43,755 nucleotides of DNA from Candidatus Aquidulcis sp. (GTDB lineage Bacteria > Chloroflexota > Anaerolineae > UBA4142). A program made the translations under genes and the position numbers. The stretch is taken from assembly GCA_020723345.1 (NCBI GenBank), contig DYJA01000056.1:1-43755 (forward strand), in the 5' to 3' direction. A model generated the notes under the pieces. That model did not search any database and was not told the DNA's origin. It worked only from the letters and a program-made list of their open reading frames with translations. Shown piece after piece: positions 12,763 to 28,567 of this stretch (position 1 is its first letter; every line of letters starts with the position of its first letter).

Positions 12763-13362
12763 TTAGAGATGTTCGAGCCGGGCGACATCCAGCACGAAAA
12801 TTGTTGCAACCGGCTCGTTCGTCGGATTCATTTTGCAGACCCGCCGGATTTGCTCCACGATCGAGTCTACGCGTTCCGCGCGCACACCGCTGAGGATGGT
12901 CGCGTTGCCGCGCCGCCAGAAACCGCCGGTCGTGCTGATCAGGGTCGCGCGATAACTCCAATCGGTCAGTGTTTCGATGAGTTTCCCTGCTTGTTCTTGC
13001 GCGACGATGGCGAGGATCATGTGCAGCGCGCCTGGCTCGCTCGGCGCGCGCTGTGAGTCCACGATTACGCGAGCCGCGCCCCAGTGTACATAGCGCGTCA
13101 CGGGAAATACGAAAATCGTCGCGCCGCCGACAATCGTCCCTGCGGGTACGGTTCGCTTGTGGCAACACATCTTGAGCAAACCCAGCGCGCGCTCGACCTC
13201 GCCCGCGCGCAAGCCAATGAGCAGCGTGACATTGCGCGCGCGCAAAAAGCCGCCCACGCTCGCGATCAGTGTGACCGCAAAACCCGCGCGGTTGAGCGCG
13301 CCGATTGCCGCGTCGGCGTCTTCGCGTTGGATGATCGCCAGCGCGAGCGCATCAATCTCCAT
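12763..13362 (-). CDS. Tandem cyclic-di-AMP receptor (DarA/PstA-type PII-like) protein
   Basis: A 199-residue protein made of two copies of the PII-like c-di-AMP receptor domain. Domain 1 (about 5-92) has ALAIIQREDADAAIGAL and ASVGGFLRARNVTLLIG; domain 2 (about 113-199) has MILAIVAQEQAGKLIETL and STTGGFWRRGNATILSG. The GGF plus GN-T-L-(I/S)-G pattern is the family signature. Usual members are single domains of about 110 residues that trimerise and bind c-di-AMP between subunits. A fused pair breaks the simple trimer symmetry. The ATG overlaps the upstream C45 gene by 11 bases, so the two are co-translated. Ligand binding is inferred. Nothing in the window makes or degrades c-di-AMP. Confidence 0.75.
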   Translation of the reverse strand: MEIDALALAIIQREDADAAIGALNRAGFAVTLIASVGGFLRARNVTLLIGLRAGEVERALGLLKMCCHKRTVPAGTIVGGATIFVFPVTRYVHWGAARVIVDSQRAPSEPGALHMILAIVAQEQAGKLIETLTDWSYRATLISTTGGFWRRGNATILSGVRAERVDSIVEQIRRVCKMNPTNEPVATIFVLDVARLEHL

Positions 13363-14413
13363 TTAAGGTGTACCTCTCGTAACTGCCCTGGCAGGGCCAG
13401 CCATTGCAAAACAAGAGTTGCCGCCGCGCGGGGAGATAAATCGCGGCGGAGATCGTGTCCGCATCGTTGATCGGACGATGGCGGCAAAGCGCGGTCGCGC
13501 CGTGATGCGCCGCGATCCGCTTGGCGTGCGCCACGTCCAGCGCGCCGCGCGCCTGCTCGAGCAACGCGCGCGCGATTTCATAACGCGCGCGCGTCTCGTC
13601 GTAGGTCGTGCTGTTCCGCAAAACGTTTGCGTCGCGCAACTCCGCGCTGACGAAATGATTCGTGGCAACGACGATGTCTTGAAGCGGCGTAATGAAACCG
13701 CACACGCGAAATCCATTTTCGACTACCGCGCACTCACCGTCAGCGTCTGCCAGAATCAGATTGCCCGCGCCCATACAGCGGACACTTTTCAAGTACGCCA
13801 GCGCGTCTGCCGTACTCGCGCAGCGTTCCAAAATGTTCATCATCAGCGTAAAGCGCGCCAAGCCAGGTCCCAAATCGCGCGACGACACGTGCGTATCGGC
13901 GATGGCTAGCCCGCGCTCGTTCATTCCGGAACTGAACACGCCTGGACTACCCGCGCTCGTCACATAAATGGAACGATAGCCCTCGCGCAGCGCGGCGTAG
14001 GCGATCACGCGCAGCGGGATGTGTCCCTCGTAGTAATCGCGATTCTTGACGAGGATCGGCGCGCCGTCGCGCGTGGCTGAGCGCGATGCCGCCCAAACCG
14101 TACATCCTTCGGGCTGCGTCTTGGCAAGCAGCAGGTCTTCGAGGTACGACGCGGCGACGTACTGAAACAATCGCTCGAGCGGAATTTGCAGTGCGTCCGC
14201 GATGCCCTCCACCATCATCAGCGTCGAGCGCGCGTGCGTCTCCCACACGCGTTTCACTTCGTCCAAGACCGGCATATCCAAGCCGCCGGTCCGCGTCAGC
14301 GCTTCCAACCGCGCGCCGATGGTCGTCAAAATCAAAGGACGCAGGTCACAGACCTGCTTCCCGTGTTGCAACCCCATCTGATAATGATCGCCGTGCAGTG
14401 ATAATACTTTCAT
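13352..14413 (-). CDS. C45-family peptidase/acyltransferase (acyl-CoA:6-aminopenicillanate acyltransferase-like)
   Basis: A 353-residue Ntn-hydrolase. The opening GDHYQMGLQHGKQV matches the N-terminal part of this family. The nucleophile is probably C104 in EGCTVWAA, where autocleavage would expose the cysteine. NRDYYEGH and SAGSPGVFSSGMNERGLAIADT follow, then a GAGNLILADADGECAVVE region near residue 230. Members cleave or transfer acyl groups on amide nitrogens (N-acyl amino acids, penicillin-type compounds). ATG 14413 is chosen over the in-frame TTG at 14437. It follows oppF and could hydrolyse the imported peptide or N-acyl compound in the cytoplasm. The substrate is unknown. Confidence 0.75.
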   Translation of the reverse strand: MKVLSLHGDHYQMGLQHGKQVCDLRPLILTTIGARLEALTRTGGLDMPVLDEVKRVWETHARSTLMMVEGIADALQIPLERLFQYVAASYLEDLLLAKTQPEGCTVWAASRSATRDGAPILVKNRDYYEGHIPLRVIAYAALREGYRSIYVTSAGSPGVFSSGMNERGLAIADTHVSSRDLGPGLARFTLMMNILERCASTADALAYLKSVRCMGAGNLILADADGECAVVENGFRVCGFITPLQDIVVATNHFVSAELRDANVLRNSTTYDETRARYEIARALLEQARGALDVAHAKRIAAHHGATALCRHRPINDADTISAAIYLPARRQLLFCNGWPCQGSYERYTLNGD

Positions 14414-14437
14414 CTTGCAAGCAACATTGATCCGCAA

Positions 14438-14473: not shown

Positions 14474-15490
14474 TCACTGATATTTCCAGCACGCGACGCG
14501 CTGTTTGCCAACTTCAAAAAACGGCGGCGTCTCATTCTCGCAGATCGAACCGACGCGCGCGAAACAGCGCGGATGAAAACGACAACCGCTCGGCGGATTG
14601 ATCGGACTGGGCACTGTCCCCTGCAAAATGATGCGCTGACGCCGCGCCGCCTTGTCGAGCGAGGGAATCGCCGCGAGCAACGCCTGGGTGTACGGATGCA
14701 GCGGCTGCGCGTACAGATCGTCGGTCGCGCCTTCTTCGGCGATGCGACCCAGGTACATCACCGCGACGCGATCGCTGATGTGATGGATCAGCGAAAGATC
14801 GTGCGCGATGAACAAGTACGTCAGATGAAATTCGTCCTGCAATTCCTCCAGCAGATTGATCACCTGCGCCTGAATCGAAACGTCGAGTGAAGACACTGGC
14901 TCGTCGGCGACGATGAATTGCGGCTGCATCGCAAGCGCGCGCGCGATGCCGATGCGCTGGCGCTGCCCGCCCGAAAACTGATGCGGATACTGATCGAGGT
15001 TGCGCGGATGCAACCCCACGCGCCGCAACAACGCGATGATCGTTTCCTCGCGTTCGTTGAGGTCTTTCAAGCCACGATTGATCAGCGGCGTCGCGATAAT
15101 TTCGCGAATCGTCTTGCGCGGATTGAGCGACGAATACGGATTTTGGAAAATGACTTGCGCGACGCGATAAAAACCCAATCGCTCGATGGGTGTAGATTTG
15201 TCTCCGCCAGACGGCAATCCTTCACGCAGCGAAAATCCTTTGAAGAAGATCTCACCCGCGGTCGGAATATCGAGACGACTGATCACGCGCCCGAGCGTCG
15301 TCTTGCCGCAACCACTTTCGCCGACCAAGCCGACGGTTTCGCCTTGCCAGATTTTCAAACTAACGCCATCCACCGCGGACACGACGATATTTTTTGCGCG
15401 CGCGAGCAAGCGCGCGAGCGCGCCTGGGCGAATCGTAAAATGGCGTTTGAGATCGCGCGTTTCGATGAGAGGAATATCGGTCGGATTCAT
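14474..15490 (-). CDS. oppF: Peptide ABC transporter ATP-binding protein (OppF/DppF-like)
   Basis: A 338-residue ATPase. Walker A GESGCGKT is at residues 57-64, the insertion FQNPYSSLNPRKTI marks the Opp/Dpp subfamily, signature FSGGQRQRIGIARAL, Walker B FIVADEPVSSLD, and the C-terminal oligopeptide motif PSGCRFHPRC. It works with OppD to power the DppB/DppC channel encoded upstream. A 70-base word-type hairpin separates it from oppD. It is one of only two peptide-type ATPase genes in the window, although three permease pairs are present. Confidence 0.92.
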   Translation of the reverse strand: MNPTDIPLIETRDLKRHFTIRPGALARLLARAKNIVVSAVDGVSLKIWQGETVGLVGESGCGKTTLGRVISRLDIPTAGEIFFKGFSLREGLPSGGDKSTPIERLGFYRVAQVIFQNPYSSLNPRKTIREIIATPLINRGLKDLNEREETIIALLRRVGLHPRNLDQYPHQFSGGQRQRIGIARALAMQPQFIVADEPVSSLDVSIQAQVINLLEELQDEFHLTYLFIAHDLSLIHHISDRVAVMYLGRIAEEGATDDLYAQPLHPYTQALLAAIPSLDKAARRQRIILQGTVPSPINPPSGCRFHPRCFARVGSICENETPPFFEVGKQRVACWKYQ

Positions 15491-15508
15491 TTCAGTTGTC
15501 CGATTTCA

Positions 15509-15578
15509 GCCACAGAGATCACAGAGAACACAGAGGTATAAACAAGGTTTTCTCTGTGTCCCCTGTGTCCTCTGTGGC
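15509..15578. repeat. Word-type hairpin repeat (CACAGAGA / TCTCTGTG)
   Basis: The left arm GCCACAGAG...CACAGAGAACACAGAGG is answered by TCTCTGTGTCCCCTGTG...CTCTGTGGC. The outer nine bases GCCACAGAG (15509-15517) and CTCTGTGGC (15570-15578) pair exactly. The right edge touches the oppD stop codon. Confidence 0.8.
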
Positions 15579-16567
15579 TAATCTGGCGTCGCCGAACTAT
15601 GGCGCAGGCAGCGAACCAGATGTCCAGGCGCGATCTCGAAAAATGGAATCAGATCGTTTTGACAAATCGGCTGCATCTCACTGCACCGTTCGGCGAACGC
15701 GCAGCCAGGCGGCACATTCGCCAGATCGGGCACGTTGCCTGGGATCGGCTCGATGCGCGTGCGCTGCGCGGAGATGCGCGGAATGCACGTCAGCAATCCG
15801 CGTGTGTACGGATGTTGCGGCGTTTCGATGACTTGGTCCGTCGTCCCGATCTCGACGAGGCGTCCCGCGTACATCACCGCGATGCGCTGGCAAAATTCGG
15901 CGGCGAGATCGAGATTGTGCGTCACGAGCACGATCGCGGTGCCGCGCGCTTCATTGATGCGCCGCATCAAGTCCATGATTTGCGCTTGAATCGTCACATC
16001 GAGCGAGGTGGTCGGTTCGTCGGCGAGCAAGATTTTCGGTTCGCACGCCAGCGCGATCGCGATGAGCGCGCGCTGTTGCATTCCGCCGCTGAACTGGTGC
16101 GGGTATTCGTGAAAACGATCCGTCGGCGACGAGATGCCGACTTCGGACATCAATTCGATGACGCGTTCTTTTTCCCGCGCGAAATGATTTTGCGCGATGT
16201 GATGAATTCGCAGCGATTCGCGAATTTGCTCGCCCACGGGAAACGCGGGATTGAGCGTGCTGAGCGGATCTTGGAAAACCATCGCGATATCTTTGCCGCG
16301 AATTTGGCGCATCGCGCCGTCGGATAACTTGAGCAAGTCGCGTCCCTGAAATAGCGCTTGACCTGCGGCGATGCGACCTGGCGTGGAAATCAAACGCAAG
16401 ATCGAAAGCATCGTTACACTCTTGCCGCATCCCGATTCGCCGACGATGCCGAGGAGTTCGCCTTGCGCCAAACTCAAACTCACATCGGCGACCGCACGCA
16501 CTAGCCCGCGCCGCGTCGGAAATACGGTCGTCAGGTTTTTCAGTTCGAGGAGAGGTGTGTTCGTCAT
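15578..16567 (-). CDS. oppD: Peptide ABC transporter ATP-binding protein (OppD/DppD-like)
   Basis: A 329-residue ATPase. Walker A GESGCGKS is at residues 43-50, FQDPLSTLNPAFPVGEQI in the subfamily insertion, signature FSGGMQQRALIAIALA, Walker B ILLADEPTTSLD, switch histidine in VTHNLDLAAE, and the C-terminal PPGCAFAERC motif. It pairs with OppF. The stop codon is inside the edge of the downstream repeat, which may have supplied the last codons. It lies between dppC and oppF in a contiguous minus-strand operon. Confidence 0.92.
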   Translation of the reverse strand: MTNTPLLELKNLTTVFPTRRGLVRAVADVSLSLAQGELLGIVGESGCGKSVTMLSILRLISTPGRIAAGQALFQGRDLLKLSDGAMRQIRGKDIAMVFQDPLSTLNPAFPVGEQIRESLRIHHIAQNHFAREKERVIELMSEVGISSPTDRFHEYPHQFSGGMQQRALIAIALACEPKILLADEPTTSLDVTIQAQIMDLMRRINEARGTAIVLVTHNLDLAAEFCQRIAVMYAGRLVEIGTTDQVIETPQHPYTRGLLTCIPRISAQRTRIEPIPGNVPDLANVPPGCAFAERCSEMQPICQNDLIPFFEIAPGHLVRCLRHSSATPD

Positions 16568-16588
16568 TGTGGTCAGTTTTCAATATTC

Positions 16589-16642
16589 AGTGTTCGGTGT
16601 TCAGTGTTCAGTCTGGATACTGAATACTGAACACTGAACACT
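16589..16642. repeat. Word-type hairpin repeat (CAGTGTTC / GAACACTG)
   Basis: The left arm 16589-16612 is built from AGTGTTCGGTGTTCAGTG words, the right arm 16619-16642 from ACTGAATACTGAACACTG words. They pair with few mismatches around a six-base loop. The right edge overlaps the dppC stop codon (16641-16643). CAGTGTTC and its variants recur at 17587, 25440 and 37169. Confidence 0.8.
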
Positions 16643-17573
16643 ACTCGATCTTGAGTCGCGGATCGAGAATATCGCGCAACCCTTCGCCAAAGATGTTGAT
16701 CGCAACGACGAGCAACAAAATCGCCAGACCTGGGAAGGTGGAAACCCACCACGCCACGAGCAAATAATCGCGTCCGCTCGCGACCATCGAGCCCCACGCG
16801 GGGGTGGGCGGCTGAATGCCCAGTCCCAGAAAACTGAGACTCGCTTCCATGATGATCATGTAACCCAGGCGGAGCGTGCCAAGCACAAAGACCGATTGAA
16901 TCACGTTCGGCAAAATTTCCGAGACGATGATCGCCAGATTGCTTTGCCCCGCGACGCGCGCGCCGTCCACGTATTCTTTCGTTCGCTCTCCCAGCACTTC
17001 GCCGCGCACCAAGCGAAAGAATTCGACCCAGCCCTTGAACGCGAGCGCCATCACTAGATTGACAAAGCCAGGTCCCAAAAATGCCATCACGCCAATCGCA
17101 AAGATGAGAAACGGAAACGCGAGGAGCAAGTCGGCAAAGCGCGAGAGGATTTCGTCGAGCCAACCGCGATAATAGCCCGCGAACGCGCCGAGCGCGGTGC
17201 CGACGATCACGGAAATCGCAACGCTGAGCAAACCGACCGCGAGCGAAACGCGCGTGCCGTAGATGATGCGCGTGAGGAGATCGCGCCCTTGATCGTCCGT
17301 GCCGAGCGGGTACTTCCAATTCCCCTCCGCTTCCCACGCGGGCGGCTCAAAGCGCAACAACAGCGTGCCGCGCGTTGGATCGTGAATCGTAATCTGCGCG
17401 GCGAAGACCGCGGCGAGAATAAAAGCCGCGACGACGATGCCGCCGAGCAGGACAACGGGGCGTTGCCACAGTTCGTACCCCAACTCGGCGAGGGCGCGCC
17501 ACCAGAGCCGCAAGCGGATGCGGAACGAGTAATCCCAACCGCGCGCAACGCGCGTCGGTGCGTGTGCCGTCAT
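16641..17573 (-). CDS. dppC: Peptide ABC transporter permease (DppC/OppC-like), set 1
   Basis: A 310-residue membrane protein with an N-terminal cytoplasmic tail and about six hydrophobic segments. GTDDQGRDLLTRIIYGTRVSL is the DppC hallmark; the ATPase-contact loop reads ...DGARVAGQSNLAIIVSEILPN, and the end reads GEGLRDILDPRLKIE. ATG 17573 is preferred to the in-frame start at 17606, since the extra 11 residues lack family character and lie in repeat sequence. It forms the channel with the DppB at 17657, fed by the lipoprotein at 18851 and powered by OppD/OppF. Confidence 0.9.
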   Translation of the reverse strand: MTAHAPTRVARGWDYSFRIRLRLWWRALAELGYELWQRPVVLLGGIVVAAFILAAVFAAQITIHDPTRGTLLLRFEPPAWEAEGNWKYPLGTDDQGRDLLTRIIYGTRVSLAVGLLSVAISVIVGTALGAFAGYYRGWLDEILSRFADLLLAFPFLIFAIGVMAFLGPGFVNLVMALAFKGWVEFFRLVRGEVLGERTKEYVDGARVAGQSNLAIIVSEILPNVIQSVFVLGTLRLGYMIIMEASLSFLGLGIQPPTPAWGSMVASGRDYLLVAWWVSTFPGLAILLLVVAINIFGEGLRDILDPRLKIE

Positions 17574-17586
17574 CTGTACCCCGATT

Positions 17587-17662
17587 AGTGAACAGTCAAC
17601 AGTCAACAGTGTTCACCGTTCACTGTTTACTGTTCACTGTTCACTGATTCACTGATTCACAG
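17587..17662. repeat. Word-type hairpin repeat (AACAGTCAACAGTG / CACTGTTTACTG)
   Basis: The left side repeats AACAGTCAACAGT; the right side repeats GTTCACTGTTTACTGTTCACTG, then GATTCACTGATTCAC. The right edge overlaps the dppB stop codon (17657-17659). Very similar words occur at 25440-25475. Confidence 0.75.
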
Positions 17663-18667
17663 CGTAATTTTCGGATTCAAATACGTGTACAAAATATCCA
17701 CGACGAGATTGGTCAAGACGAAGGTGATCGCGTAAATCATTACCGCGCCTTGAATGAGCGGAAAATCGCGATTGAAAATCGCGTCCACGACCAAGCGCCC
17801 CAAGCCGGGCCAACTGAACACCGTTTCGACGATCATGTTGCCGCCGAGCAGCACGCCGACTTGCAAACCGACGACGGTGACGGTGGGGATGAGCGCGTTG
17901 CGGAGCGCGTGCTTCATCACGACATCCCACTCGGTCGCGCCTTTCGCGCGCGCAAGTTTGACGTAATCGCTCCGCAACACTTCGAGCATACTCGAACGCA
18001 GGACGCGCGCGATGATCGCGGCGACGCCCGCGCCCAATGTGATGGACGGCAACAGCAGGTGCAACAAACTATCTTTCAACGCGGGCAGATTGCCCGTGAG
18101 CAAACTATCCAGCACGTACAACCCCGTCACCTCTTGTAGTTCGACGTCGTAACTGATGCGTCCTTGCGCGGGCAGAATTTGCAGATACACCGCAAAAAAG
18201 AGAATCAGCACAATGCCCAACCAAAAGCCAGGCATCGAAATTCCCAGGAACGCGCCTGCCATACTCAAACGGTCGAGGAGCGAATTTTGCCGCACCGCCG
18301 AAAGAATCCCAATCGGCAGCGCGATGATGAGACTGATCAGCAGCGCGCCAATCGTCATCTCGATCGTTGCGGGCAAACGTTCGACGAGCAGATCAACGAC
18401 GGGTTTGTTGCGGATGTACGAGTAACCCAGGTTGCCGCGCAGCGCGTCGCCCAAAAAGTATCCGAGTTGCACATGGAGCGGTTCGTCCAAGTGAAATTGA
18501 TGACGCAATTGCTCGATCTCGCGTTGGGAGGCAGCGGCAGAGCGACCGAGCATAATATCCACCGGATCGCCCGGCGTGAGCCGGATGAAAAAGAAAACGA
18601 TGATCGCGACGCCGAACATAATCGGAATCGTCGTCAGAACGCGCTCGAGGATTTTGATCGCTTTCAT
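17657..18667 (-). CDS. dppB: Peptide ABC transporter permease (DppB/OppB-like), set 1
   Basis: A 336-residue membrane protein beginning MKAIKILERVLTTIPIMFGV. FFIRLTPGDPVDIMLG is the DppB N-terminal hallmark, HFDLDEP-type spacing is kept in QFHLDEPLHVQLGYFL, and the contact loop EVLRSDYVKLARAKGATEWD precedes HALRNALIPTVTVVGLQVG. The in-frame start 24 bases upstream would add MPSPDLCV and lies in repeat sequence; ATG 18667 fits the family. It makes the translocation pore with DppC. About six transmembrane helices are visible. Confidence 0.9.
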   Translation of the reverse strand: MKAIKILERVLTTIPIMFGVAIIVFFFIRLTPGDPVDIMLGRSAAASQREIEQLRHQFHLDEPLHVQLGYFLGDALRGNLGYSYIRNKPVVDLLVERLPATIEMTIGALLISLIIALPIGILSAVRQNSLLDRLSMAGAFLGISMPGFWLGIVLILFFAVYLQILPAQGRISYDVELQEVTGLYVLDSLLTGNLPALKDSLLHLLLPSITLGAGVAAIIARVLRSSMLEVLRSDYVKLARAKGATEWDVVMKHALRNALIPTVTVVGLQVGVLLGGNMIVETVFSWPGLGRLVVDAIFNRDFPLIQGAVMIYAITFVLTNLVVDILYTYLNPKITL

Positions 18668-18684
18668 GACACACAAGTCCGGAG

Positions 18685-18852
18685 AGGGCATCAGCGGGCA
18701 TTGAGGGCGCAGAGGGGATAAGAGGGCATCAGCGGGCGTAGAAGGCGTAGAGGGCGCGCCTTCCCTGCCTTCTTATGCCTTCTATTGCCTACTCCTGCCT
18801 TCTCTGTCTTCTTATCCCTTCTAACGCCCTCTCAACCCCTCTGACTCCCTCT
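18685..18852. repeat. Long purine/pyrimidine word-type hairpin repeat
   Basis: The left part (to about 18760) is made of GAGGGCATCAGCGGGC, GGGCGCAGAGG and GGCGTAGAGGGC words; the right part is made of GCCTTCTTATGCC, CTTCTCTGTC and GCCCTCTCAACCCC words. They are imperfect reverse complements. It is the largest repeat in the window, fills the dppB to binding-protein gap and runs into the stop codon of the binding protein. Confidence 0.75.
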
Positions 18853-20548
18853 ACTTCAAACACACATCGTGCAAATTCTCGCGGCTGTCGGACGCGGGCG
18901 CCCAGTTCTGGACGCGCGCCGCCGCGGCTTCGATGGCTTCGGGCAACACGAGGAAGAGCGCGGGCGCTTCATCGTAAATCAGTTTCTGCGCTTCGTTGTA
19001 GATTACTTTGCGCTTGGCAACGTCATTTTCGATTTCGCCGTCTTTGATCAGCTTGTCGACGCGCGCGTTCGCATACCCCGAAAAATTGCCGCGCCCGTAG
19101 GTCGAGCCCGTGACGAGAGAGTGCCACTTGGCTTCGATATGACCGACGGGATCGAACGCCGAGTCGCCCCAGTCGCCGACGTACGCCTGGCGCTCGCGCG
19201 CGAGCAGTTTCGGGCGCACGACGTTGTATTCCCACACGCGCACGCTCGCGTCAATGCCAACATCGCGCAGCATCGTCGCGACGGCTTCGGTGACGGGTCG
19301 GAGCGAGTCAATCGTATCAATGACGAACGCGAGCGGCTTGCCGTCCTTCATCAACATGCCGCTAGCGTCGGGCGTCCAGCCCGCTTCTTTCAGCAACGCC
19401 AATGCTTTGGCTTTGTCGTACGTGTATGGCTTCAAACTGGGATCGGCAAAGTTGTTCGTCGGCATCAGCGCGCCGCCGAGCGGCTGCGCCAGACCGTTGT
19501 ACACTTTTTTGATGATGAGGTTCTTGTCCACCGCATAGTTCAACGCTTGGCGCACCTTGACATCGGTGAAGGGGGCTTGGGTGACGTTGAACTCCATCCA
19601 GATGGGACGCGTCCCTGCAACGCTCTTGACTTGAACGCCGGGAACTTTTTTCAGCGTGTCCACCAACTCGGCGGGCACTTCGGTGATGATGTCCACTTCG
19701 CCCGCGAGCAGCGCCGCGACGCGCGTCGAATTTTCAGGAATCACGCGAAAGACCGCGCGCGACACACACGCCTTGCCGACGGGCGTGAGATCGGGCGCGC
19801 CGCCAAAGTAATCGGCAAAGCGTTCGAGCACGACTTCTTCCAGACCAGTTTTGGACGATACGAACTTGAATGGACCCGTGCCCAGCGGTTTTTCGATCAG
19901 TCCTTTCGTGCCGACTTTGGTGACGTACGCTTTGGAGACGATTTGCGTGTGGACGAGCATCTGCATCGCGGCGGGCCACGGCGCCGTAAAATTCACGACG
20001 ACGGTATAGTCGTCTTTCTTTTCAGCGGAACCAAAAGGACCAAGAAAACCCTTGCGGAGCGCGGTGTGCGGCTGCGGAAATTCGATGGCGTTGGGCTTGA
20101 AGACGCGCTCGAAGGTGTAGATCACGTCGTCCGCTTTCAACTCGCTGCCGTCGTGGAACTTGACGCCCTTGCGCAGTTTGATTTCCAGCGTCTTGGTGTC
20201 GAGCCACTTGATTGACTCGGCGATCTCATTATGCACGCCGCTTGTCTTGTCACGTGTCACCAAGCCGTCGTATAGATTGCGGATCACCGTCTCGGCTTCG
20301 CGACTGCTGTGATCGGCGGGATCGATTCCCGATGGCGCGCGCGCCAACGCGACCACGAGCGTGTCGCGACCTGGGACGGCAGTCGGCTGGACGACGACGG
20401 TTCTCTCTGCGACGACGGTCTTTTCGACGATCTTCTCGACGGGCTTTTCGACGACCTTCTCGATGACCTGGGGCGTCGGCGTCGCGCATGCGGCGAGCAA
20501 CACGAGGATCGCCAACGCGCTAAATTGAATCATTCGAACTCGGTTCAT
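18851..20548 (-). CDS. Peptide-type ABC transporter substrate-binding lipoprotein (SBP_bac_5 / DppA family), set 1
   Basis: A 565-residue extracytoplasmic protein. The lipobox LLAAC puts the lipid anchor at C21. A repetitive stalk of V-E-K/P units (VIEKVVEKPVEKIVEKTVV) spans about residues 28-46 and probably forms a helical spacer from the membrane. The domain begins RDTLVVALARAPSGIDPADH and shows the family block LRKGVKFHDGSELKADDVIYTF. GGAGGAAAAGC precedes the ATG. Ligands of this family include peptides, opines, nickel and sugars. Its neighbour opine dehydrogenase makes an opine or peptide ligand plausible. It lies upstream of the matching permeases and ATPases. Confidence 0.9.
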   Translation of the reverse strand: MNRVRMIQFSALAILVLLAACATPTPQVIEKVVEKPVEKIVEKTVVAERTVVVQPTAVPGRDTLVVALARAPSGIDPADHSSREAETVIRNLYDGLVTRDKTSGVHNEIAESIKWLDTKTLEIKLRKGVKFHDGSELKADDVIYTFERVFKPNAIEFPQPHTALRKGFLGPFGSAEKKDDYTVVVNFTAPWPAAMQMLVHTQIVSKAYVTKVGTKGLIEKPLGTGPFKFVSSKTGLEEVVLERFADYFGGAPDLTPVGKACVSRAVFRVIPENSTRVAALLAGEVDIITEVPAELVDTLKKVPGVQVKSVAGTRPIWMEFNVTQAPFTDVKVRQALNYAVDKNLIIKKVYNGLAQPLGGALMPTNNFADPSLKPYTYDKAKALALLKEAGWTPDASGMLMKDGKPLAFVIDTIDSLRPVTEAVATMLRDVGIDASVRVWEYNVVRPKLLARERQAYVGDWGDSAFDPVGHIEAKWHSLVTGSTYGRGNFSGYANARVDKLIKDGEIENDVAKRKVIYNEAQKLIYDEAPALFLVLPEAIEAAAARVQNWAPASDSRENLHDVCLK

Positions 20549-20645: not shown

Positions 20646-21728
20646 CTACGTTTCTCCCTTGATCAATGTTTTTACCTGTGTGACGTTCAGTCCTTCAATT
20701 CCCAATTGCCGAGCATTTCTGCCATCCCGCCAAAAATCGCGTCCCGACAACGCGCACGCTACATGTGCCAGACCTTCGCACGCGGGCATCGGCACATTCG
20801 CGATGCGCCCCAGCGCGACCATCGGCACGAGACCCATCGGCACATCTTCCCAAATGTAGCGCACATCAATCGAGCGCGGCGCGGCGATGCCGCGATACGC
20901 CGCGTTGCTCTGGATGCGCTCGTATAGCGTGTCGCCGGTAATGCCGTCGTAACTGCGCGCCAGCCACTCGCACGCGGATTGCGCGCGTACGCCGAACGCG
21001 CGCGCCACGGCGAGCCGCTCCGCATCCATCACTTCGATGAATCGCGCAATGCTCGGCGTCAGATCGCGATAAAACTCGAACGGCGCGCCCGACTCGATGC
21101 GCCCGACGCTGAGAATCGTCGTCGTCGGATGAAACATCGCGCCGATGTTGTCCAGCCCCGTTTCCAAAACATCTGCCGCCGCGACGAATTGCGGAAAGAG
21201 CGGATTCACGCGTTCCAACACGCGCGCGGTGTCGCACGCGGGCAGCGCGGCGAGCGTCACTTCGCGCTTGACCATCGAAATCCGCACGCGCGCGGGCGCC
21301 GAAAGGCGGCACGTGTACAACAACGTTTGCGCTTCCGCGACGAGCACGCGCGCCTTAATGCCGCGCGCGCGCAGCACGTTGCGAAACTCGAGCGCGCCGC
21401 CTGTGCGACCTGGGTTCAGCACGATCACTTGGTCGTCGCGCAGATGTGGCGCGCACGCTTCCGCCATAAACGCGTGCGCGTTCGCAGGCACGACGACAAA
21501 GATGAAATCGGCGTTCGCGACGACCGGCGCGATGTCGGTCGTGATGAGTTCGAGCGCGCCGAATCCTGCGACGACGCCTTCGCACGTCACACCGCGCGCG
21601 TTCTGCAGATCGGCGATTTCGTGCGCGAACTTGTTGTAGACGCGGACGGGATAGCCGCGCAACGCGAGATCGCCCGCGAACGCGTGCGCGCCATTACCCG
21701 CGCCGAGAATTGCAATGGGGGGGTTCAT
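20646..21728 (-). CDS. NAD(P)-dependent opine dehydrogenase (octopine/nopaline dehydrogenase family), copy 1
   Basis: A 360-residue protein. The N-terminal NAD(P) motif is GAGNGA (residues 9-14) with AGDLALRGYPVRVYN. The C-terminal opine domain has a conserved histidine in MFHPTTT, a long helix with MDAERLAVARAFG, and DVRYIWEDVPMGLVPM. Opine dehydrogenases reductively join an amino acid and a 2-oxoacid, or run the reverse oxidation. The ATG overlaps the stop of the upstream B12 mutase gene in ATGA, with GGAGG before it, so the two proteins are made together. The open frame extends to 21968 on the same strand, but that is shadow. The substrate pair is unknown; copy 2 is at 33294. Confidence 0.85.
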   Translation of the reverse strand: MNPPIAILGAGNGAHAFAGDLALRGYPVRVYNKFAHEIADLQNARGVTCEGVVAGFGALELITTDIAPVVANADFIFVVVPANAHAFMAEACAPHLRDDQVIVLNPGRTGGALEFRNVLRARGIKARVLVAEAQTLLYTCRLSAPARVRISMVKREVTLAALPACDTARVLERVNPLFPQFVAAADVLETGLDNIGAMFHPTTTILSVGRIESGAPFEFYRDLTPSIARFIEVMDAERLAVARAFGVRAQSACEWLARSYDGITGDTLYERIQSNAAYRGIAAPRSIDVRYIWEDVPMGLVPMVALGRIANVPMPACEGLAHVACALSGRDFWRDGRNARQLGIEGLNVTQVKTLIKGET

Positions 21729-24700
21729 TTGCGCACTCCTCCGGCAGGTTGTCCCATCTCCAGTGAAATCAATTCGCGTTTCATCACGCGCAGTGCTTGC
21801 TCTGGATCCACGCGTCCGTACAATCCGCCGAGAATGCTCACGAGGTACTGCGCGTCGAGCAACACGCGACCGTTCGGGCGCAGGACGTGCGGCTCGTCGG
21901 GATTGTAGATCACGCCTTGCGCGATCAGCGCGAGATCGTCCAGATAGCCGGGCGCGCGCTCCTGACACTTGTGATACACCGTGCCGCCGATAATCAACAC
22001 GGTAACGGGCTGATTCAAAAAGTTAACGCCGTGCTGCAAAAAGTACGTCTCGGTCTCGTCCACATAGCCAACGTGTTTGCGCGTCGCTGTTGCCAAAATC
22101 TCGCGCGCTAACCAAGAACGCGCGGCATTTTCCATCGCCGTATTCGGGACGACGTGCGGATTGGACGCGATCCAGGTCAGGTAGCGGTCCAAATCTACTT
22201 CGGTGTGTTGATTGCGGCTCAGAAGAAATTGACCAAACTGGTCATTACCGGGAACAAAGACGTTCGGAAATCGTTGCGCCAAGAACGTACTCAATTCCTG
22301 CCGCATCGCGCCATTCTTGAAGCGATCCAGTTCTTTGAGATTCTCGGCGTTGTACGCGAGACCGTACTTGCCTTCCACGCGGCGATACGCCAGCGGAGTA
22401 TTCGGCGTCTTGAGAATCGTCCGCTTGACGCGCTTGGCGTTGTCGGGTCCCTCGTACACAAAGAGCGGATTGTCAGTGACGTTGGAGAAAAAATCAGTCG
22501 TGGCTCCGCCGATGTCGAGCGCGAGAATGTTGCCCAACCCCTCTTCCTTGCCGTGCCCACGCACCAACAAGTTGATGCCGCGAAAAGCCGCGCGCGGCGT
22601 TGGGATAAAGGGCGCGTCCATATATTTCTCGACGACGTCGAATCCCTTGCCGCGAATGATGACGGTCTGGAACAGTTCGCGAATCGTTTCGTTGACGACT
22701 TCGATTTGAAAACGATTCACTTCCGGCATAACGTTCTGGGTCACGCGAATATCGATCTTGTGCGCGTGAAAGATGTTTTCGACTTGCTCGCGAATGTCAT
22801 TGTTACCGGCGTAGATCACGGGTACGCCGTATTGCGCGTACCCGGCATAGCGCGCGTTCTCCGCAAGCAGACGCGCGTTGTGTAACTCGTGCTCCGTGTC
22901 CCCGCCTTCGTTCGTGCCGCCCGCCATCAAAATAATCTCCGGCTGATCGGTGGTGTAGATCGCGCGCGCCTGCTCCGGCGTCAACTTGCCGGAGTAACTC
23001 GCCAACAATTTCGCTCCGGCGGTCAGCGCGGCGAGATCGGCGGCAAAGCCGGATTCCTCCTCGGTCAGCGAAACGGTCACCATCTTCAAGCCACCCTTGG
23101 CGCTCGAACAGGGGAGGCGCACGTCGAACTGACTCATCGCGTCGTCGAGCGGTTTCCAGTCCCCGCGCGCTTGACACGCAGGAAGCACGCCGAGTCCATT
23201 CGCCAAACCGATGCGAATGTCGTCCACGGTCGTGGGAACGTATCTTAGCCCAAAACGCGCGTTCTTGACATCAAACAAACCGACCTTGGTGAACGTCGAG
23301 CCAAAGTCCACGACCAGGGCTTGCTTGGTCTGCGCTTTAAGTTGCGCGATGCTCTTGCCCTTGATGGCGACTTCTTGATCGCTGACCTCTTCCTCCATCG
23401 CCTCCGTTTCGGTGATGAACGATTCGTCGGCGGCAACCGAAATGTTCTTGTCGAAGTACCAGGGGAAACGCTGCCGCACCAAATCGACGCGCTGAAACTC
23501 ATCCTTCACTGGAATGCCGTCCCAGGCGTCAATGCGGCACGCGCCATCCACGACCTTGGTCTTGCACTTGCCGATCATTTCGTACTTGCGATCGGCGACC
23601 GTCAAATGCGGCGCTTGATATAAACCGATTTGCAAACCGAGATCGAGCGCATCGGGGCTGATGAGTCCGCACGTTTTCGTCGAGTAGTGGTCTTCATTCG
23701 CGAAAGAGAGCAACATCGTCTCGTAGTTGCGATCTTTATTCTCGCTGGGCTCCTTCGCCCAATCGTCAAAGTTGGCAATCGCGACGGGACCTTCATAGCC
23801 GCCGAGCAGCGCGCCGTGCAGAATGTTGTACATCGCCGCGCGTTTTAATTCCGCGATCCGATGGCGAACCCAGGGATCCGCCCAGATGTCGGGCACGTGC
23901 CCTTTCGCAAAATCCCAACACACTTGCTTGGTGATCTGGCACGACTCGATGATGTCTTCGGCTTTGGCTTCGTGATGCGCTTCCGAGTGCGTGACGACGT
24001 GCAGAATGTCCGGCTCGAGATAGAGTTGCGTGTAAATGCCGAACGCGAGATGTCCTTTGGCTTGATGCAGGTCGGGCGGAAAACTCGGCAAACCCGAACG
24101 CGTTTGCTTGATGATCTTGAAATCGTAATGGCGCGTCAGCGGCTCGATCAATTCGTACGCGGCTTTCATCTTGGCGAGATCGTCGAGCGCGGAAATCTCC
24201 GGCGGCAACTCGAACATCATTTGCATCACGTATTGCGTGACGCCTAGTTTCAGCGCCATCAAACCGACGAGGACGTGATCGGTCACCTGCATATCGTCGC
24301 TCGCGTAACGCAAGCCCCATTGATGCGGATCGTTGATCTCGCACGGCTTGCCAACGCTTGCCCAGTATCGGATCACGTCGTAATGTTCGCGGAACGAATC
24401 GTGAATCGAAATCGGACCGCGTCCGTCCATCCGATTGTAGAAAAAGATCGGCACGGCGGGGAAACACGAGTTGAGATGTTCCTGCCACAGTTTCGCGAGT
24501 TCGAGCAATTCGTCGGTGCCGCTGTAGATGCGCGTCATCGGATAATTGCCGCGGCGCGTCGCGGCTTTGAGTCGTTTCAGATCTTCGATCGTGCGGATCG
24601 GCGCGCCACCTTGCCCCGCGAGATATTTGCGGGGGTCTTCTTCGCCGCGAATGAATTTGGCGAGCAGTTCCTGCGACGTTTGATCGGGCGCGAGCGAAAC

Positions 24701-25402
24701 GATTTCGAGCGCGCCGGCGTCCGCGAGTGTTTCGATGCCGTCAATCGTCGGCTCGATCGTTTCCGCGGCAATGCCGATGTGCGCGCGAATGATCGGACGA
24801 TTCTCACGCTCGCGCACTTGTTGGATGCGCTCGACCAAGTAATCTGACCAGCGAATCAGCGTTTCCTCGCGTTCGACTGGCTCGCGCCGCGCAAAGCGTT
24901 CCAGTTCTTCCATCGTGATGTAATCGTCCGCGATCACGTCGAAGAAATGATCGAATTCGGGTTTGTCGCTGTAATCCTGGCTGACTTGTTCGAGATCAAA
25001 GTGACGTTCTTCGGGCGGCGTGAACGGATCGGGTTCGAGCGGCACGCCCGTCATCGTGCGGACGAGATTCGCGGCGGGGCGTAAGCCGCCAAAACAGAAT
25101 CGAATCCCAGAATCTTTGGGGTGCAACCCGTACTGGGTCGCGGTCGTAACGAATTCGCCGATGAGTTTGTCCACGTGCAGATCACCCAGCCGCATCGAAA
25201 CGCCGACGATTTCGGGGCGCGCTTCTCGAATCTTGTTGATCACTTCGGGAATCGGCACCGCGGGTCCCAGTTTGACCGAGACGTAGCCGAGTCCCATGTC
25301 TTGCATCCAATCGGCAAAATTTTCGACGCCGAGATTGTGAACACACTTGCCAATCGCGCCGACCATCACGCGGCGTTTTTTGCGAGGATCCGATGTATCC
25401 AT
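21725..25402 (-). CDS. Fused cobalamin-dependent mutase: B12-binding domain, GlmE-like barrel, MutL/GlmL ATPase
   Basis: One 1225-residue chain. Residues 11-120 form a B12-binding Rossmann domain with CVHNLG (20-25), where H22 would ligand cobalt; the usual DxHxxG aspartate is cysteine. Residues about 200-640 resemble the GlmE/MutE TIM barrel only distantly (GPISIHDSFREHYDVIRYW, TDHVLVGLMALKLGV, THSEAHHEAKAEDI). Residues about 693-1225 are clearly MutL/GlmL: DFGSTFTK (699-706), CSSAKGGLKM (765-774), MAGGT (826-830), DIGGATTD (963-970). In glutamate mutase these are separate genes (mutS, mutL, mutE). MutL-type ATPases are thought to reactivate the B12 enzyme. The start is ATG 25402, with AAGGA five bases before it. 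The gene is coupled to an opine dehydrogenase. The substrate is unassigned; a carbon-skeleton or amino-group shift on an amino acid is likely. Confidence 0.8.
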   Translation of the reverse strand: MDTSDPRKKRRVMVGAIGKCVHNLGVENFADWMQDMGLGYVSVKLGPAVPIPEVINKIREARPEIVGVSMRLGDLHVDKLIGEFVTTATQYGLHPKDSGIRFCFGGLRPAANLVRTMTGVPLEPDPFTPPEERHFDLEQVSQDYSDKPEFDHFFDVIADDYITMEELERFARREPVEREETLIRWSDYLVERIQQVRERENRPIIRAHIGIAAETIEPTIDGIETLADAGALEIVSLAPDQTSQELLAKFIRGEEDPRKYLAGQGGAPIRTIEDLKRLKAATRRGNYPMTRIYSGTDELLELAKLWQEHLNSCFPAVPIFFYNRMDGRGPISIHDSFREHYDVIRYWASVGKPCEINDPHQWGLRYASDDMQVTDHVLVGLMALKLGVTQYVMQMMFELPPEISALDDLAKMKAAYELIEPLTRHYDFKIIKQTRSGLPSFPPDLHQAKGHLAFGIYTQLYLEPDILHVVTHSEAHHEAKAEDIIESCQITKQVCWDFAKGHVPDIWADPWVRHRIAELKRAAMYNILHGALLGGYEGPVAIANFDDWAKEPSENKDRNYETMLLSFANEDHYSTKTCGLISPDALDLGLQIGLYQAPHLTVADRKYEMIGKCKTKVVDGACRIDAWDGIPVKDEFQRVDLVRQRFPWYFDKNISVAADESFITETEAMEEEVSDQEVAIKGKSIAQLKAQTKQALVVDFGSTFTKVGLFDVKNARFGLRYVPTTVDDIRIGLANGLGVLPACQARGDWKPLDDAMSQFDVRLPCSSAKGGLKMVTVSLTEEESGFAADLAALTAGAKLLASYSGKLTPEQARAIYTTDQPEIILMAGGTNEGGDTEHELHNARLLAENARYAGYAQYGVPVIYAGNNDIREQVENIFHAHKIDIRVTQNVMPEVNRFQIEVVNETIRELFQTVIIRGKGFDVVEKYMDAPFIPTPRAAFRGINLLVRGHGKEEGLGNILALDIGGATTDFFSNVTDNPLFVYEGPDNAKRVKRTILKTPNTPLAYRRVEGKYGLAYNAENLKELDRFKNGAMRQELSTFLAQRFPNVFVPGNDQFGQFLLSRNQHTEVDLDRYLTWIASNPHVVPNTAMENAARSWLAREILATATRKHVGYVDETETYFLQHGVNFLNQPVTVLIIGGTVYHKCQERAPGYLDDLALIAQGVIYNPDEPHVLRPNGRVLLDAQYLVSILGGLYGRVDPEQALRVMKRELISLEMGQPAGGVRK

Positions 25403-25417
25403 ATCCATCCTTGAAAA

Positions 25418-25496
25418 TGACCGCCGACGGCGGACCGCTGTGTTCACTGTTTACTGTTTACTGTTCACTGATTGCAGTCGGTGGTCGGCGGTCGTA
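25418..25496. repeat. Composite hairpin repeat between rpiR-type gene and B12 mutase
   Basis: The outer arms are GACCGCCGACGGCGGACCG on the left and CGGTGGTCGGCGGTC on the right. The centre is filled by TTCACTGTTTACTG words like those at 17587-17662. The 15-mer GACCGCCGACGGCGG (25419-25433) recurs exactly at 31927-31941. Confidence 0.75.
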
Positions 25497-25498
25497 GA

Positions 25499-26356
25499 TT
25501 ACTCCAGCACCAACTTGCCGCGCCGATATGCGGCGTCCACCTGGCGCAGCGCGCGCGCGGTTTCCTTGGGACGGGTGAACGACAGCGCGGCGATGAACGC
25601 GTTCATCAGCGCGAGCATACTCGTGAGCGAAAGCGAGTGTGCCGCGCCGTCCGTCGCGATTTGAAACGCGTAATCGGCGCGCTGCGCGATCGGCGTGACG
25701 ATGCTATCGCTAATCGCGACGCGCGTCGCGCCGATACTTTGCGCGCGCTCCATCGCCGCGACGGTGTCCGCGACGTAGCGCCACACGCTGATGCCGATGA
25801 CCGCGCTGGTCTTTTTGAGTGAGACGAGTTCGAGCGCAAGGGGGATACCGCCGTTGAGCGCGGCGCGCGCGCGCAAGCCCATCACCGTGAGCGAATGCGT
25901 CAAGTACAGCGCGGGTCCCGCCGAAAGTCCGCCCGCGACGACGAGGATATCGCTGGCTTTGGCGAGCGCGCGTATGGCAGACCAAAAGCGCGCGGAGTTG
26001 AGCAGGTCAATCGTCTTGCTCAGGTTTTGCGCGTCCAGTTCGAAAACGCGCTGGGCAATGTCTGTTGTGTTCGCGCGAGTGCGCTTGTCTTCGATCTGCT
26101 GAACTTTGTGGACGTAGGTGGGCAGTTTGGCGCGGACGGCGGCTTGGAGTTCGGGATAGCCGTCATAGCCGATGGCTTGGCAAAAACGCACGACGGTCGC
26201 GTTGCTCACGCCGACTTTTTCGCCCAATTCGGCGGCGGAGGCGAACGCGACGAACAAGCTGTTGGCGAGGATAAAGCGCGCCAACTTTTGATGCGCGCGA
26301 CTCAACGTGGGGAAGACGGCGGTGATCCGATTTTCGAGTGGGGCGGCATTGCCCAT
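25499..26356 (-). CDS. MurR/RpiR-family transcriptional regulator
   Basis: A 285-residue regulator. The N-terminal RpiR helix-turn-helix domain (about 1-75) includes SRAHQKLARFIL and AAELGEKVGVSNATVVRFCQ. The C-terminal SIS domain (about 120-260) includes ILVVAGGLSAGPALYLTHSL and RVAISDSIVTPIA; SIS domains usually bind sugar phosphates, though RpiR homologues also control amino-acid genes. ATG 26356 gives the typical N-terminus MGNAAPLENR; an in-frame ATG at 26368 overlaps the ribosome-binding AAAGG. It is the first gene of the minus-strand operon through 12763 and faces the plus-strand operon. An imperfect inverted repeat lies just upstream of its promoter, so autoregulation is plausible. 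Confidence 0.88.
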   Translation of the reverse strand: MGNAAPLENRITAVFPTLSRAHQKLARFILANSLFVAFASAAELGEKVGVSNATVVRFCQAIGYDGYPELQAAVRAKLPTYVHKVQQIEDKRTRANTTDIAQRVFELDAQNLSKTIDLLNSARFWSAIRALAKASDILVVAGGLSAGPALYLTHSLTVMGLRARAALNGGIPLALELVSLKKTSAVIGISVWRYVADTVAAMERAQSIGATRVAISDSIVTPIAQRADYAFQIATDGAAHSLSLTSMLALMNAFIAALSFTRPKETARALRQVDAAYRRGKLVLE

Positions 26357-26415
26357 ACGAATTCTCATCCTTTGTGAACGGGATGGTCACCTATCAATCG
26401 GTGGTTTCACGGAGG

Positions 26416-26626: not shown

Positions 26627-26655
26627 TTGACAACCGATTGCCCTTGTGATATAGT
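26627..26655 (+). promoter_or_regulatory. Strong sigma70-type promoter of the second opine/oxidase operon
   Basis: TTGACA (26627-26632), a 17-base spacer, TATAGT (26650-26655) with TGA directly before it (extended -10). The start point should be near 26662. Confidence 0.75.
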
Positions 26656-26661
26656 CAAGTC

Positions 26662-26842
26662 CCTTGCGGGAGGTGATAGGCGACTTTATCACGGCGGCAC
26701 GTTTTCGCATCACGCGGCTGCCGGCGCGGCTGGGCTAGCCACCCTGGAGCACATCGTAGCGCGCGATCTGAGCGCGCGCGCTGAGACGCTACGCGCGCTT
26801 TCATTCGCTCGACAAACCCCACATTCGAGAAGGAGGATTTCG
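26662..26842 (+). other. Long structured 5' leader of the second operon
   Basis: About 180 bases lie between the predicted transcript start and the ATG at 26843. They contain a GTAGCG ... CGCTAC pair near 26757-26797 around GC-rich repeats and a GCCGGCGCGGC segment. I recognise no riboswitch family, and the conserved cobalamin, TPP and glycine riboswitch cores are not evident. The frame is open from 26627 into the gene, but the signal peptide marks the true start. Confidence 0.4.
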
Positions 26843-28567
26843 ATGAAGATCAAGTTGTCAGTGATGATGCTGTCGGTGCTTGCGTTGGTCATCGTCGTCG
26901 CTTGCACTCCCGCACCAACTCCCGCTCCGACCGCCGCTCCCCCGACAGCGGCGCCCAAGCCAACCGAAGCGCCCAAACCCACGGTCGCGCCGACCGCGGT
27001 ACCCAAGCCCACCGAAGCGCCCAAGCCCACGACTGCGCCCCGCACCGGCGGCACGCTCCGCTTTGGGCAAAACGTGGCTGACGTCGGCAACCTCGATCCG
27101 CACTATGCCACCACGACAGGGGATCGCAGTCTCGTGGACATGGTGTTCAACGCGTTGATTCGCTACGTTCCAGGCGATGGCTCCAAGTTTGAGCCGGACC
27201 TGGCGACCGCGCTCCCCGAACCGAAGATTGTCGGCGGCAAGCAAGAGTGGACGTTCACGTTGCGCAAAGGCGTCATGTGTCATCCGACGGAAGGCGTGCC
27301 CTCGTACGAACTGACGAGTGCGGACGTCGTCTACTCGCTCACCAAATCGGCAGACGCCAAGCGTTCCGCTTACGCGGGCGAGTACACTGGGATGACCTTT
27401 GCGGCGGTGGATCCCTACACCGTCAAGATCACGCTCGACCAACCCCTTTCGCCTGTTCTCTTTTTCCCCAAGATCGCCAACTACTCGGGCGGCTTTATCG
27501 TCTGCAAGCAAGCCGCGGAAAAACTGGGCGCGGACAAAATGAAGACCACGCCCGTCGGCACAGGTCCCTTCGTGTTCAAATCGTACAGCCCGAAGGAAAA
27601 AATCGAGTTGGTGGCGAACGACAAGTACTTTCGCGGGATGCCGCAACTCGACGGCGTGAGTTTCCGCTACATGGCTGACCTCACCAGTCGCGAACTCGGC
27701 TTGCTCGGTGGGCAACTCGACGCGATCAATGGCGCGCCCGACAAGGCGTGGGTGGACAAGATGGCGAAATCCGCCAACGTCCAAGTGGATGTCTTTGGTG
27801 TGGGCGAGGTCGCGACGCTCCACTTTAACCCGACGGTCAAGCCCCTCGACCAACTGGCAGTGCGCCAAGCCATCGCTTACGCGCTGGATCGCGATGAATT
27901 CCTGGCTCTCGTCGGCGACAAGGTCGGCGGCAAAGTGTACTCGTTCGTGCCAGCGCAGTTCCTGGCGGGCGGCTTGACGCAAGCCGAAGTTGCGGCGAAG
28001 GGCTTGGAGTACAAGACTGACATCGCCAAAGCCAAGAAGATGCTGGCGGATGCGGGCTATGCCAACGGCTTTCCGCTGTCAATGGTCACTTCGGAGATGA
28101 CGGGCTATCGCGTCCTCTACGAGTCCATGCAAGCGCAACTCGCCAAAGTCGGCATCAAGGCAGAGGTCAAGGTCGTCGACCACACGACGATGCACGATAC
28201 CATCCGCAAGAATCTGAACGCGCTGGTCATCTACATCGCCTGGCGTCCGAATGCGGATGCGTACTTCACCCGCTTTTTCCACTCGGACTCGATCATCATC
28301 ACGGGCAAAAAGCCCGACACGAACTTTACGAACTATAGCAAGATTGACAAGTTGATCGAGCAGGCGCGCTTTGAGACGGATGCGGCAAAGCAAGTCACCT
28401 TGTGGAAGGAAGCCGAAGTTCAACTGCTGCAAGACATGATCGTGTACCCGATCCAGTATCAGAACCAGGTCTACGCGCGCTCCAAAGCCGTGGACTATGG
28501 GCACGAGTTGAAATCGGTGCTCGCGCTCTACCCTGGCGTTGACGAGAAAACCAAGTTGGTGAAATAG
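26843..28567 (+). CDS. Peptide-type ABC transporter substrate-binding lipoprotein (SBP_bac_5 family), set 2
   Basis: A 574-residue protein. The signal peptide MKIKLSVMMLSVLALVIVVAC places the lipidated cysteine at residue 21. A Pro/Thr/Ala/Lys linker built from PTEAPKPT-like units runs to about residue 67. The binding fold starts GGTLRFGQNVADVGNLDPHY and has the family block TFTLRKGVMCHPTEGVPSYELTSADV split by a short insertion. AGGAGG precedes ATG 26843. It feeds the DppB/DppC at 28649-30465. The operon carries an opine dehydrogenase and an opine-oxidase-like complex, so an opine or N-substituted amino acid is the favoured guess. Confidence 0.9.
   Translation: MKIKLSVMMLSVLALVIVVACTPAPTPAPTAAPPTAAPKPTEAPKPTVAPTAVPKPTEAPKPTTAPRTGGTLRFGQNVADVGNLDPHYATTTGDRSLVDMVFNALIRYVPGDGSKFEPDLATALPEPKIVGGKQEWTFTLRKGVMCHPTEGVPSYELTSADVVYSLTKSADAKRSAYAGEYTGMTFAAVDPYTVKITLDQPLSPVLFFPKIANYSGGFIVCKQAAEKLGADKMKTTPVGTGPFVFKSYSPKEKIELVANDKYFRGMPQLDGVSFRYMADLTSRELGLLGGQLDAINGAPDKAWVDKMAKSANVQVDVFGVGEVATLHFNPTVKPLDQLAVRQAIAYALDRDEFLALVGDKVGGKVYSFVPAQFLAGGLTQAEVAAKGLEYKTDIAKAKKMLADAGYANGFPLSMVTSEMTGYRVLYESMQAQLAKVGIKAEVKVVDHTTMHDTIRKNLNALVIYIAWRPNADAYFTRFFHSDSIIITGKKPDTNFTNYSKIDKLIEQARFETDAAKQVTLWKEAEVQLLQDMIVYPIQYQNQVYARSKAVDYGHELKSVLALYPGVDEKTKLVK

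Follow-up and report, generated by a model that had tools for sequence, protein, structure and literature searches.

AdoCbl mutases that rearrange carbon skeletons are few in number, and every known one has defined a pathway. Glutamate mutase has the fold closest to that of the protein described here, and it likewise comprises a B12-binding domain, a mutase barrel and a MutL reactivase, but these are divided among three chains (GlmS, GlmE and GlmL) rather than joined in one. GlmE holds its substrate with R66, R100 and R149 together with E171 and Y177 (PMC10947579), and MutL is a chaperone that reactivates glutamate mutase (PMC4682846). In architecture, the closest precedent is IcmF, in which an isobutyryl-CoA mutase and the G-protein chaperone for its AdoCbl cofactor form a single chain (PMC10481361). 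IcmF contains a MeaB-type P-loop GTPase and acts on CoA thioesters, whereas the present protein has an ASKHA ATPase and a GlmE-type barrel. A similar barrel fold is seen in ornithine 4,5-aminomutase and lysine 5,6-aminomutase, and the ornithine pathway also includes a GlmL-like protein, but both enzymes use PLP. As regards the neighbouring gene, a 2024 report on metagenomic opine dehydrogenases (mODHs) demonstrated by experiment that Arg111 and Gly198 (1bg6 numbering) confer a preference for L-Asp and L-Glu, that the double swap A111R/N198G carries this acidic preference over, and that mutagenesis of the pair turns a Phe preference into one for Asp (PMC10787698).

The window, i.e., the whole stretch of DNA that was analysed (43,755 nucleotides), is a complete contig of a 6.3-Mb genome that is 95.5% complete. 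The operon studied here runs in the order RpiR, mutase-MutL, opine dehydrogenase, solute-binding protein, two permeases, two ATPases and C45/AAT amidase, with the following features:

25499..26368, minus strand: RpiR-family regulator, first gene of the operon (HTH_6 and SIS)
21725..25402, minus strand: putative fused B12-dependent mutase and MutL reactivase, 1,225 aa (reading frame, start codon, PF13941, full-length relatives)
24953..25381, minus strand: B12-binding (Rossmann) domain, residues about 8-150 (PF02310 at E 6.3e-5, sub-threshold; model; conserved residues)
25328..25345, minus strand: C-V-H-N-L-G motif
23480..24853, minus strand: predicted mutase TIM barrel with C-terminal extension, residues about 184-641 (structural alignment to 1cb7_B; hhalign to GlmE)
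21770..23317, minus strand: MutL/GlmL-type ASKHA ATPase domain, residues about 696-1211 (PF13941; identity to GlmL; fold)
20646..21728, minus strand: Octopine_DH-family dehydrogenase, 360 aa (PF02317, E 2e-42; 1bg6)
14474..20548, minus strand: dipeptide/opine-type ABC importer with SBP_bac_5, two permeases and two ATPases (PF00496, PF00528, oligo_HPY)
13352..14437, minus strand: C45/AAT-type acyltransferase or amide hydrolase, last gene of the operon (PF03417, E 9.6e-20)

The reading frame of the fused gene (21725-25447, minus strand) is open over 1,240 codons, and an ATG at 25402, with AAGGA five bases upstream, gives a protein of 1,225 aa. Its chain order is B12-binding domain, AdoCbl-mutase TIM barrel and intact MutL ATPase. 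A sequence-only reading of the locus had proposed that a single gene joins these three parts, and this was borne out by the open reading frame, the PF13941 match, the cobalt-site motif and the predicted fold. A three-part chain of this kind was found full-length in 46 relatives, and since it recurs in dozens of genomes at 59-94% identity, a chance architecture can be excluded. We found no paper on the fusion in the open-access literature, a search that left subscription journals mostly outside, and to our knowledge this would be the first AdoCbl mutase with a built-in ASKHA-type reactivase.

In the B12-binding domain, the PF02310 match is weak and falls below the Pfam gathering score, but the assignment is made nonetheless because the C-V-H-x-x-G motif is conserved and the model predicts an appropriate fold of alternating strands and helices. 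In 57 aligned sequences, C20, V21, H22 and G25 are invariant and S69 and G106 nearly so, which provides the features of a base-off/His-on cobalamin motif: a histidine at the ligand position, a glycine after it, and a serine and a glycine further on. By alignment, H22 occupies the cobalt-ligand position and C20 stands where the aspartate of DxHxxG would be; we treated this aspartate as a usual but variable mark of AdoCbl mutases, not as a strict one. The first reading had described the altered motif as a property of this gene. The retained histidine and the Cys-for-Asp exchange both stand, but the exchange is not peculiar to the window, as all 97 family members counted have cysteine, and the Cys-Val-His motif is common to the MutL-fused clade and a stand-alone sister clade. 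It also sets the family apart from glutamate mutase.

The barrel is far from GlmE in sequence. When the barrel was searched by sequence alone against Pfam, NCBIfam and PDB, nothing matched, and neither Met_asp_mut_E (PF06368) nor the aminomutase family models of Pfam and NCBIfam matched the protein up to E 0.1. A profile-profile comparison with hhalign did align the barrel with GlmE, colinearly over 347 columns (E 8.7e-5, probability 60%). The AlphaFold2 model of residues 1-653 was built from 57 relatives and has a mean pLDDT of 87.7. Its top Foldseek match is glutamate mutase GlmE (1cb7_B, E 4.7e-14), followed in order by lysine 5,6-aminomutase, ornithine 4,5-aminomutase and methylmalonyl-CoA mutases. 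VIA-align ranks the predicted fold in the same way, with GlmE best (1cb7_B, Z 27.4, rmsd 3.0 over 373 residues), then lysine 5,6-aminomutase (Z 25.8), ornithine 4,5-aminomutase (Z 23.9) and methylmalonyl-CoA mutase (Z 19.3). By its predicted TIM-barrel fold and its histidine motif, the mutase half is placed in the AdoCbl mutase superfamily of GlmE, aminomutase and methylmalonyl-CoA mutase barrels.

Two alternatives bear on this placement. The protein might be no mutase at all but a corrinoid methyltransferase or a B12-sensing protein with a borrowed barrel, as the best phmmer matches of its B12 domain include, weakly, a methyltransferase corrinoid protein. We regard this as very improbable: the barrel reaches Z 27 to mutases versus about 15 to dihydropteroate-synthase-type barrels, the equivalent of GlmE E330 is retained, and the attached MutL is known as a reactivating chaperone of glutamate mutase (PMC4682846). 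A PLP- and B12-dependent aminomutase, similar to the ornithine 4,5- or lysine 5,6-enzyme, would agree with Z values nearly as high as that of GlmE and with an ornithine-racemase-like gene (below the curated cut-off) at three related loci, and yet it too seems improbable, if slightly less so, given that GlmE leads by more than 1 Z, that the aminomutase models remain unmatched and that the specificity signature of the partner dehydrogenase (see below) is acidic and not basic.

The assignment of the C-terminal half is straightforward. PF13941 matches residues 711-1226 of the long form with E 8.5e-90 and 302 bits against a cut-off of 27, both phosphate motifs (DFGSTFTK and DIGGATTD) are intact, and the domain is 31% identical to a GlmL encoded beside GlmE (E 1e-62). 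Its model (pLDDT 85.9) matches ASKHA ATPases, including the diol dehydratase reactivase 2d0o, and the NCBIfam model NF040744 (GlmL-like, ornithine pathway) matches the protein below its cut-off. The domain contains a flavodoxin-like insert that 4r3u_C and CheY match about equally well; we do not claim it as a mimic of the B12 domain that displaces the real one, as the fold is too common. Taken together, sequence and models support the view of the protein as a putative AdoCbl mutase that shares one chain with its MutL reactivase, is distant from GlmE and is coupled to an opine dehydrogenase. MutL-family rescuers are normally separate proteins, and a fused reactivase would open cofactor rescue by this family to structural study in one stable chain, much as IcmF gave such access for G-protein chaperones.

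To see how far the family extends, we examined 400 genomes sampled from the phylum, with E below 1e-50 defining a strong relative, and scanned 84,980 species genomes. The first search gave 28 genomes with a strong relative; the frame was long enough for the fusion only in the window and in genome G184, and the rest were stand-alone mutases. The second gave 415 relatives, of which the best 80 were classified into 57 fused-type loci (59-94% identity over the best segment, with a contig end truncating some of them) and 23 more distant loci (33-39% identity), 22 of the latter being evaluated as stand-alone mutase loci. Among these best 80 of 415, the records that contain the fused type have the labels Chloroflexota, Bacillota, Bipolaricaulota, Atribacterota, Aerophobetes, SAR324, Spirochaetales, Actinomycetota, Desulfovibrio and UASB270, and there is a single contig labelled Lokiarchaeota, which clusters within Atribacteria and might be a binning error. 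In all, about 50 MutL-fused relatives from about ten phyla were seen, and all those found appear to lie in metagenome-assembled genomes (MAGs); the closest relatives come from MAGs labelled Chloroflexi or Anaerolineae. The stand-alone sister clade was found in Chloroflexota and Lokiarchaeota, and in a tree the MutL-fused members form a single clade apart from it. The mutase family is widespread, uncharacterised and unnamed. Genomes of the class often have a separate MutL of about 600 aa whether or not a stand-alone mutase is present, and none was seen in G283 and G361, two genomes with a stand-alone mutase; we accordingly do not claim a separate MutL as companion of the stand-alone enzymes.

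Glutamate mutase pairs with methylaspartate ammonia-lyase, whereas the present family pairs with an opine dehydrogenase. The stop codon of the window mutase and the start codon of its dehydrogenase overlap as ATGA. Of 72 evaluable loci, 71 have an Octopine_DH-family gene right next to the mutase and on its strand, namely 45/46 fused loci, 4/4 members of the fused clade cut by a contig end and 22/22 stand-alone loci; the sole exception, L067, is a fused locus with both flanks present. For comparison, the genome of the window has only three PF02317 genes in its 6.3 Mb. The partners fall into two lineages that are far apart: in the group of the window and in the stand-alone clade they resemble N-(1-D-carboxyethyl)-L-norvaline dehydrogenase (1bg6, E 7.9e-89 for the window gene), and in most fused loci they resemble scallop octopine dehydrogenase (3c7a, E 2.8e-75 for L055). 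The lineage of the partner thus changes and yet the enzyme class beside the mutase stays the same, which argues for a functional link. The coupling had been suggested from the window alone, and it proved far stronger than could be seen there. No paper on the pairing was found in the open-access literature, and subscription papers on it may exist. A second cluster, on the opposite strand of the window, has an opine dehydrogenase of its own and was left out of the operon.

The residues of the partner dehydrogenases give some indication of what they act on. The window enzyme has Lys35, Arg111, Gly198, His202 and Asp297 (1bg6 numbering), and the His-Asp dyad is kept in nearly all partners, eight of which have Glu at the Asp position. 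Arg111 and Gly198 are present together in 88 of 88 partner sequences (81 distinct), from both lineages and including the window gene, but the pair is absent from each of the 19 unpaired Chloroflexota PF02317 genes compared, including two in the window's own genome; the reference enzymes have Ala/Asn and Gln/Tyr at these positions. Fisher's test for paired versus unpaired genes gives p 7.6e-21, a value that is descriptive only, because the sequences share ancestry. In addition, Arg35 and His108 of the mODHs recur in most stand-alone partners (PMC10787698), and the partners are probably related to those enzymes, as judged from shared residues. With the specificity carried over from them, the signature suggests acidic amino acids of the Asp/Glu type. 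In the passages of that report that were consulted, no genomic link of mODHs to a B12 mutase was seen. The pairing might provide a physiological context for metagenomic Asp/Glu-specific opine dehydrogenases.

The active site of the barrel was compared with that of GlmE in the same spirit. In three MAFFT modes, R66, R100, R149, E171 and Y177 of GlmE align with H208, Q244, Y293, P315 and F321, and hhalign concurs for R66, R149, E171 and Y177, with R100 falling adjacent to Q244. The marks of glutamate mutase, i.e., the arginine claw and E171, are thus absent, replaced mostly by residues that are invariant across the 57 relatives (H208, Q244 and Y293), while G68 and E330 are retained as G210 and E474. 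Five other arginines of the barrel (R206, R291, R328, R365 and R435) are also invariant; judging from the sequence and the secondary structure, they lie at the ends of barrel strands and would be at the barrel mouth or face the cofactor. The replacement of claw residues by invariant ones points to a site that is conserved but unlike that of glutamate mutase, and still rich in arginine.

One explanation for this pattern would be a divergent glutamate mutase that still forms 3-methylaspartate, with the claw rebuilt from other arginines and the dehydrogenase freeing glutamate from a glutamate opine. Indeed, GlmE is the closest fold, the partner signature suits Glu/Asp, and R206 and R291 share their strands with the residues aligned to R66 and R149, which they precede by two positions. 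Glutamate-type neighbours also occur at other loci, namely D-glutamate-cyclase-like genes (4 loci), gamma-glutamyltransferase (3) and C26 gamma-glutamyl-type hydrolase (5), and one related locus has a glutamate 2,3-aminomutase above the curated cut-off. Against this, R66, R100, R149 and E171 are all replaced, Met_asp_mut_E does not match, and in the window's own, 95.5% complete genome neither GlmE (PF06368 at E 0.001) nor methylaspartate ammonia-lyase (PF07476) was found. We consider a divergent glutamate mutase unlikely. The caution of the sequence-only reading about glutamate as a substrate holds, but because of the Asp/Glu-like signature of the dehydrogenase, glutamate or a close derivative is still a candidate despite the lost claw. 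The ORFs L132-L138, which match PF06368 weakly, were classed as methylmalonyl-CoA-mutase-like, on the translations of L132 and L133 only.

In another explanation, the substrate of the mutase would be the opine itself, i.e., a tricarboxylate like N-(1-carboxyethyl)glutamate or -aspartate, and the dehydrogenase would cleave or form the rearranged opine. Five invariant barrel arginines, versus three in the claw of GlmE, would suit such a substrate, as would the near-obligate pairing and the fact that roughly every second fused-type locus has a peptide/opine-type importer: among 58 such loci, window included, a permease was counted in 30, a solute-binding protein in 29 and RpiR in 24. The stand-alone mutase/dehydrogenase pairs, however, have no conserved importer, and we know of no AdoCbl mutase that takes an N-substituted amino acid. 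This explanation, which is a narrower version of the one we favour, is a tentative one, somewhat easier to entertain than a divergent glutamate mutase.

The reading we favour, with a probability of roughly 0.6, is a new AdoCbl mutase subfamily that works with an opine dehydrogenase for acidic amino acids and that in one clade is self-reactivating. The near-constant pairing with a dehydrogenase of acidic signature suggests that the mutase probably performs a B12 reaction on such compounds, and the best-supported substrate class would be an acidic amino acid or an opine of one. The glutamate-type neighbours at other loci agree with such a substrate. AdoCbl would bind base-off with H22 as lower ligand, and C20 would hydrogen-bond the ligand as the usual aspartate does. 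The adenosyl radical would arise at the barrel, with E474 in place of GlmE E330, and attack an acidic amino acid or its N-carboxyalkyl derivative (an opine of the Glu/Asp type) gripped by R206, R291, R328, R365, R435, H208, Q244 and Y293. The dehydrogenase would join the same amino acid to a 2-oxo acid, for example pyruvate, or cleave their opine, and uptake of the compound would be the task of the ABC importer. The pathway might run as catabolism of an imported opine or as opine formation serving as a redox sink. Upon loss or oxidation of AdoCbl, the tethered MutL, an ASKHA ATPase, would hydrolyse ATP, open the mutase, expel the dead cofactor and exchange the damaged cobalamin for intact AdoCbl, the tether keeping rescue always at hand.

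If so, a family locked to an opine dehydrogenase would represent an overlooked B12-dependent step in the metabolism of opines or acidic amino acids. We give about even odds to the wider proposition that an acidic amino acid or its opine undergoes a previously unknown AdoCbl-dependent carbon-skeleton reaction, carried out by a two-enzyme module with opine dehydrogenase in many bacterial phyla and some Asgard archaea, one clade of which has a built-in ASKHA-type reactivase and is thereby a counterpart of IcmF with an unrelated chaperone.

Lastly, we looked at the remaining neighbours and at the supply of cofactor. The C45/AAT-type gene is also present at L079, L086 and L104, and rarer neighbours include Amidohydro_3 amidohydrolases (5 loci) and a TRAP-type importer (6 loci). 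No cobalamin riboswitch was found in the window and five loci. The genome of the window encodes a CobA/BtuR adenosyltransferase and methylmalonyl-CoA mutases, and AdoCbl is thus probably available and seems to be both made and used.

Among the evaluable loci of the fused mutase, whose B12-binding domain, barrel and MutL ATPase form one chain, L067 is the sole case with no opine dehydrogenase adjoining the mutase; its RpiR gene and ABC importer are both there. Two ORFs take the place of the single fused gene at loci L064 and L087, the break falling inside the mutase half, which may reflect either an assembly frameshift or a natural split. At loci L076, L080, L082 and L086, the opine dehydrogenase gene and the fused mutase gene are immediately preceded by a D-glutamate-cyclase-like gene (PF14336) and a GntR/FCD-type regulator, an arrangement that spans genomes of three phyla. 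At locus L084, the fused mutase has the following neighbour:

L084 12039-13289, glutamate 2,3-aminomutase gene, ~0.4 kb downstream

MutL is also common in this class as a separate protein of ~600 aa, with or without a mutase of the fused or stand-alone family, as in this example:

L048 7940-9730 (G000:C128), separate MutL, ~600 aa

The predicted model of the window protein's MutL domain contains a flavodoxin-like insert (residues ~770-915), whose structural fit to B12-binding domains and to CheY is of similar quality (Z 11-12). Judging from this model, the insert could mimic the B12 domain in reactivation.

The stand-alone mutase and its dehydrogenase were found in four Lokiarchaeota MAGs (L112, L115, L121 and L123). 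These form their own deep branch, and thus the mutase-dehydrogenase module may be old or may have been exchanged with Asgard archaea. The fused type also occurs on a Lokiarchaeota contig (L090), where it sits on a short branch within Atribacteria sequences; this contig is probably misbinned.

Lastly, the window holds a second gene cluster:

26627-34373, + strand, second cluster, opposite in orientation to the mutase operon
33204-34373, + strand, second Octopine_DH gene, without Arg111/Gly198

The cluster encodes another SBP_bac_5 protein, permeases, an MmgE/PrpD protein and a saccharopine-dehydrogenase-like protein, and looks like a separate catabolic unit for an opine or imino acid.
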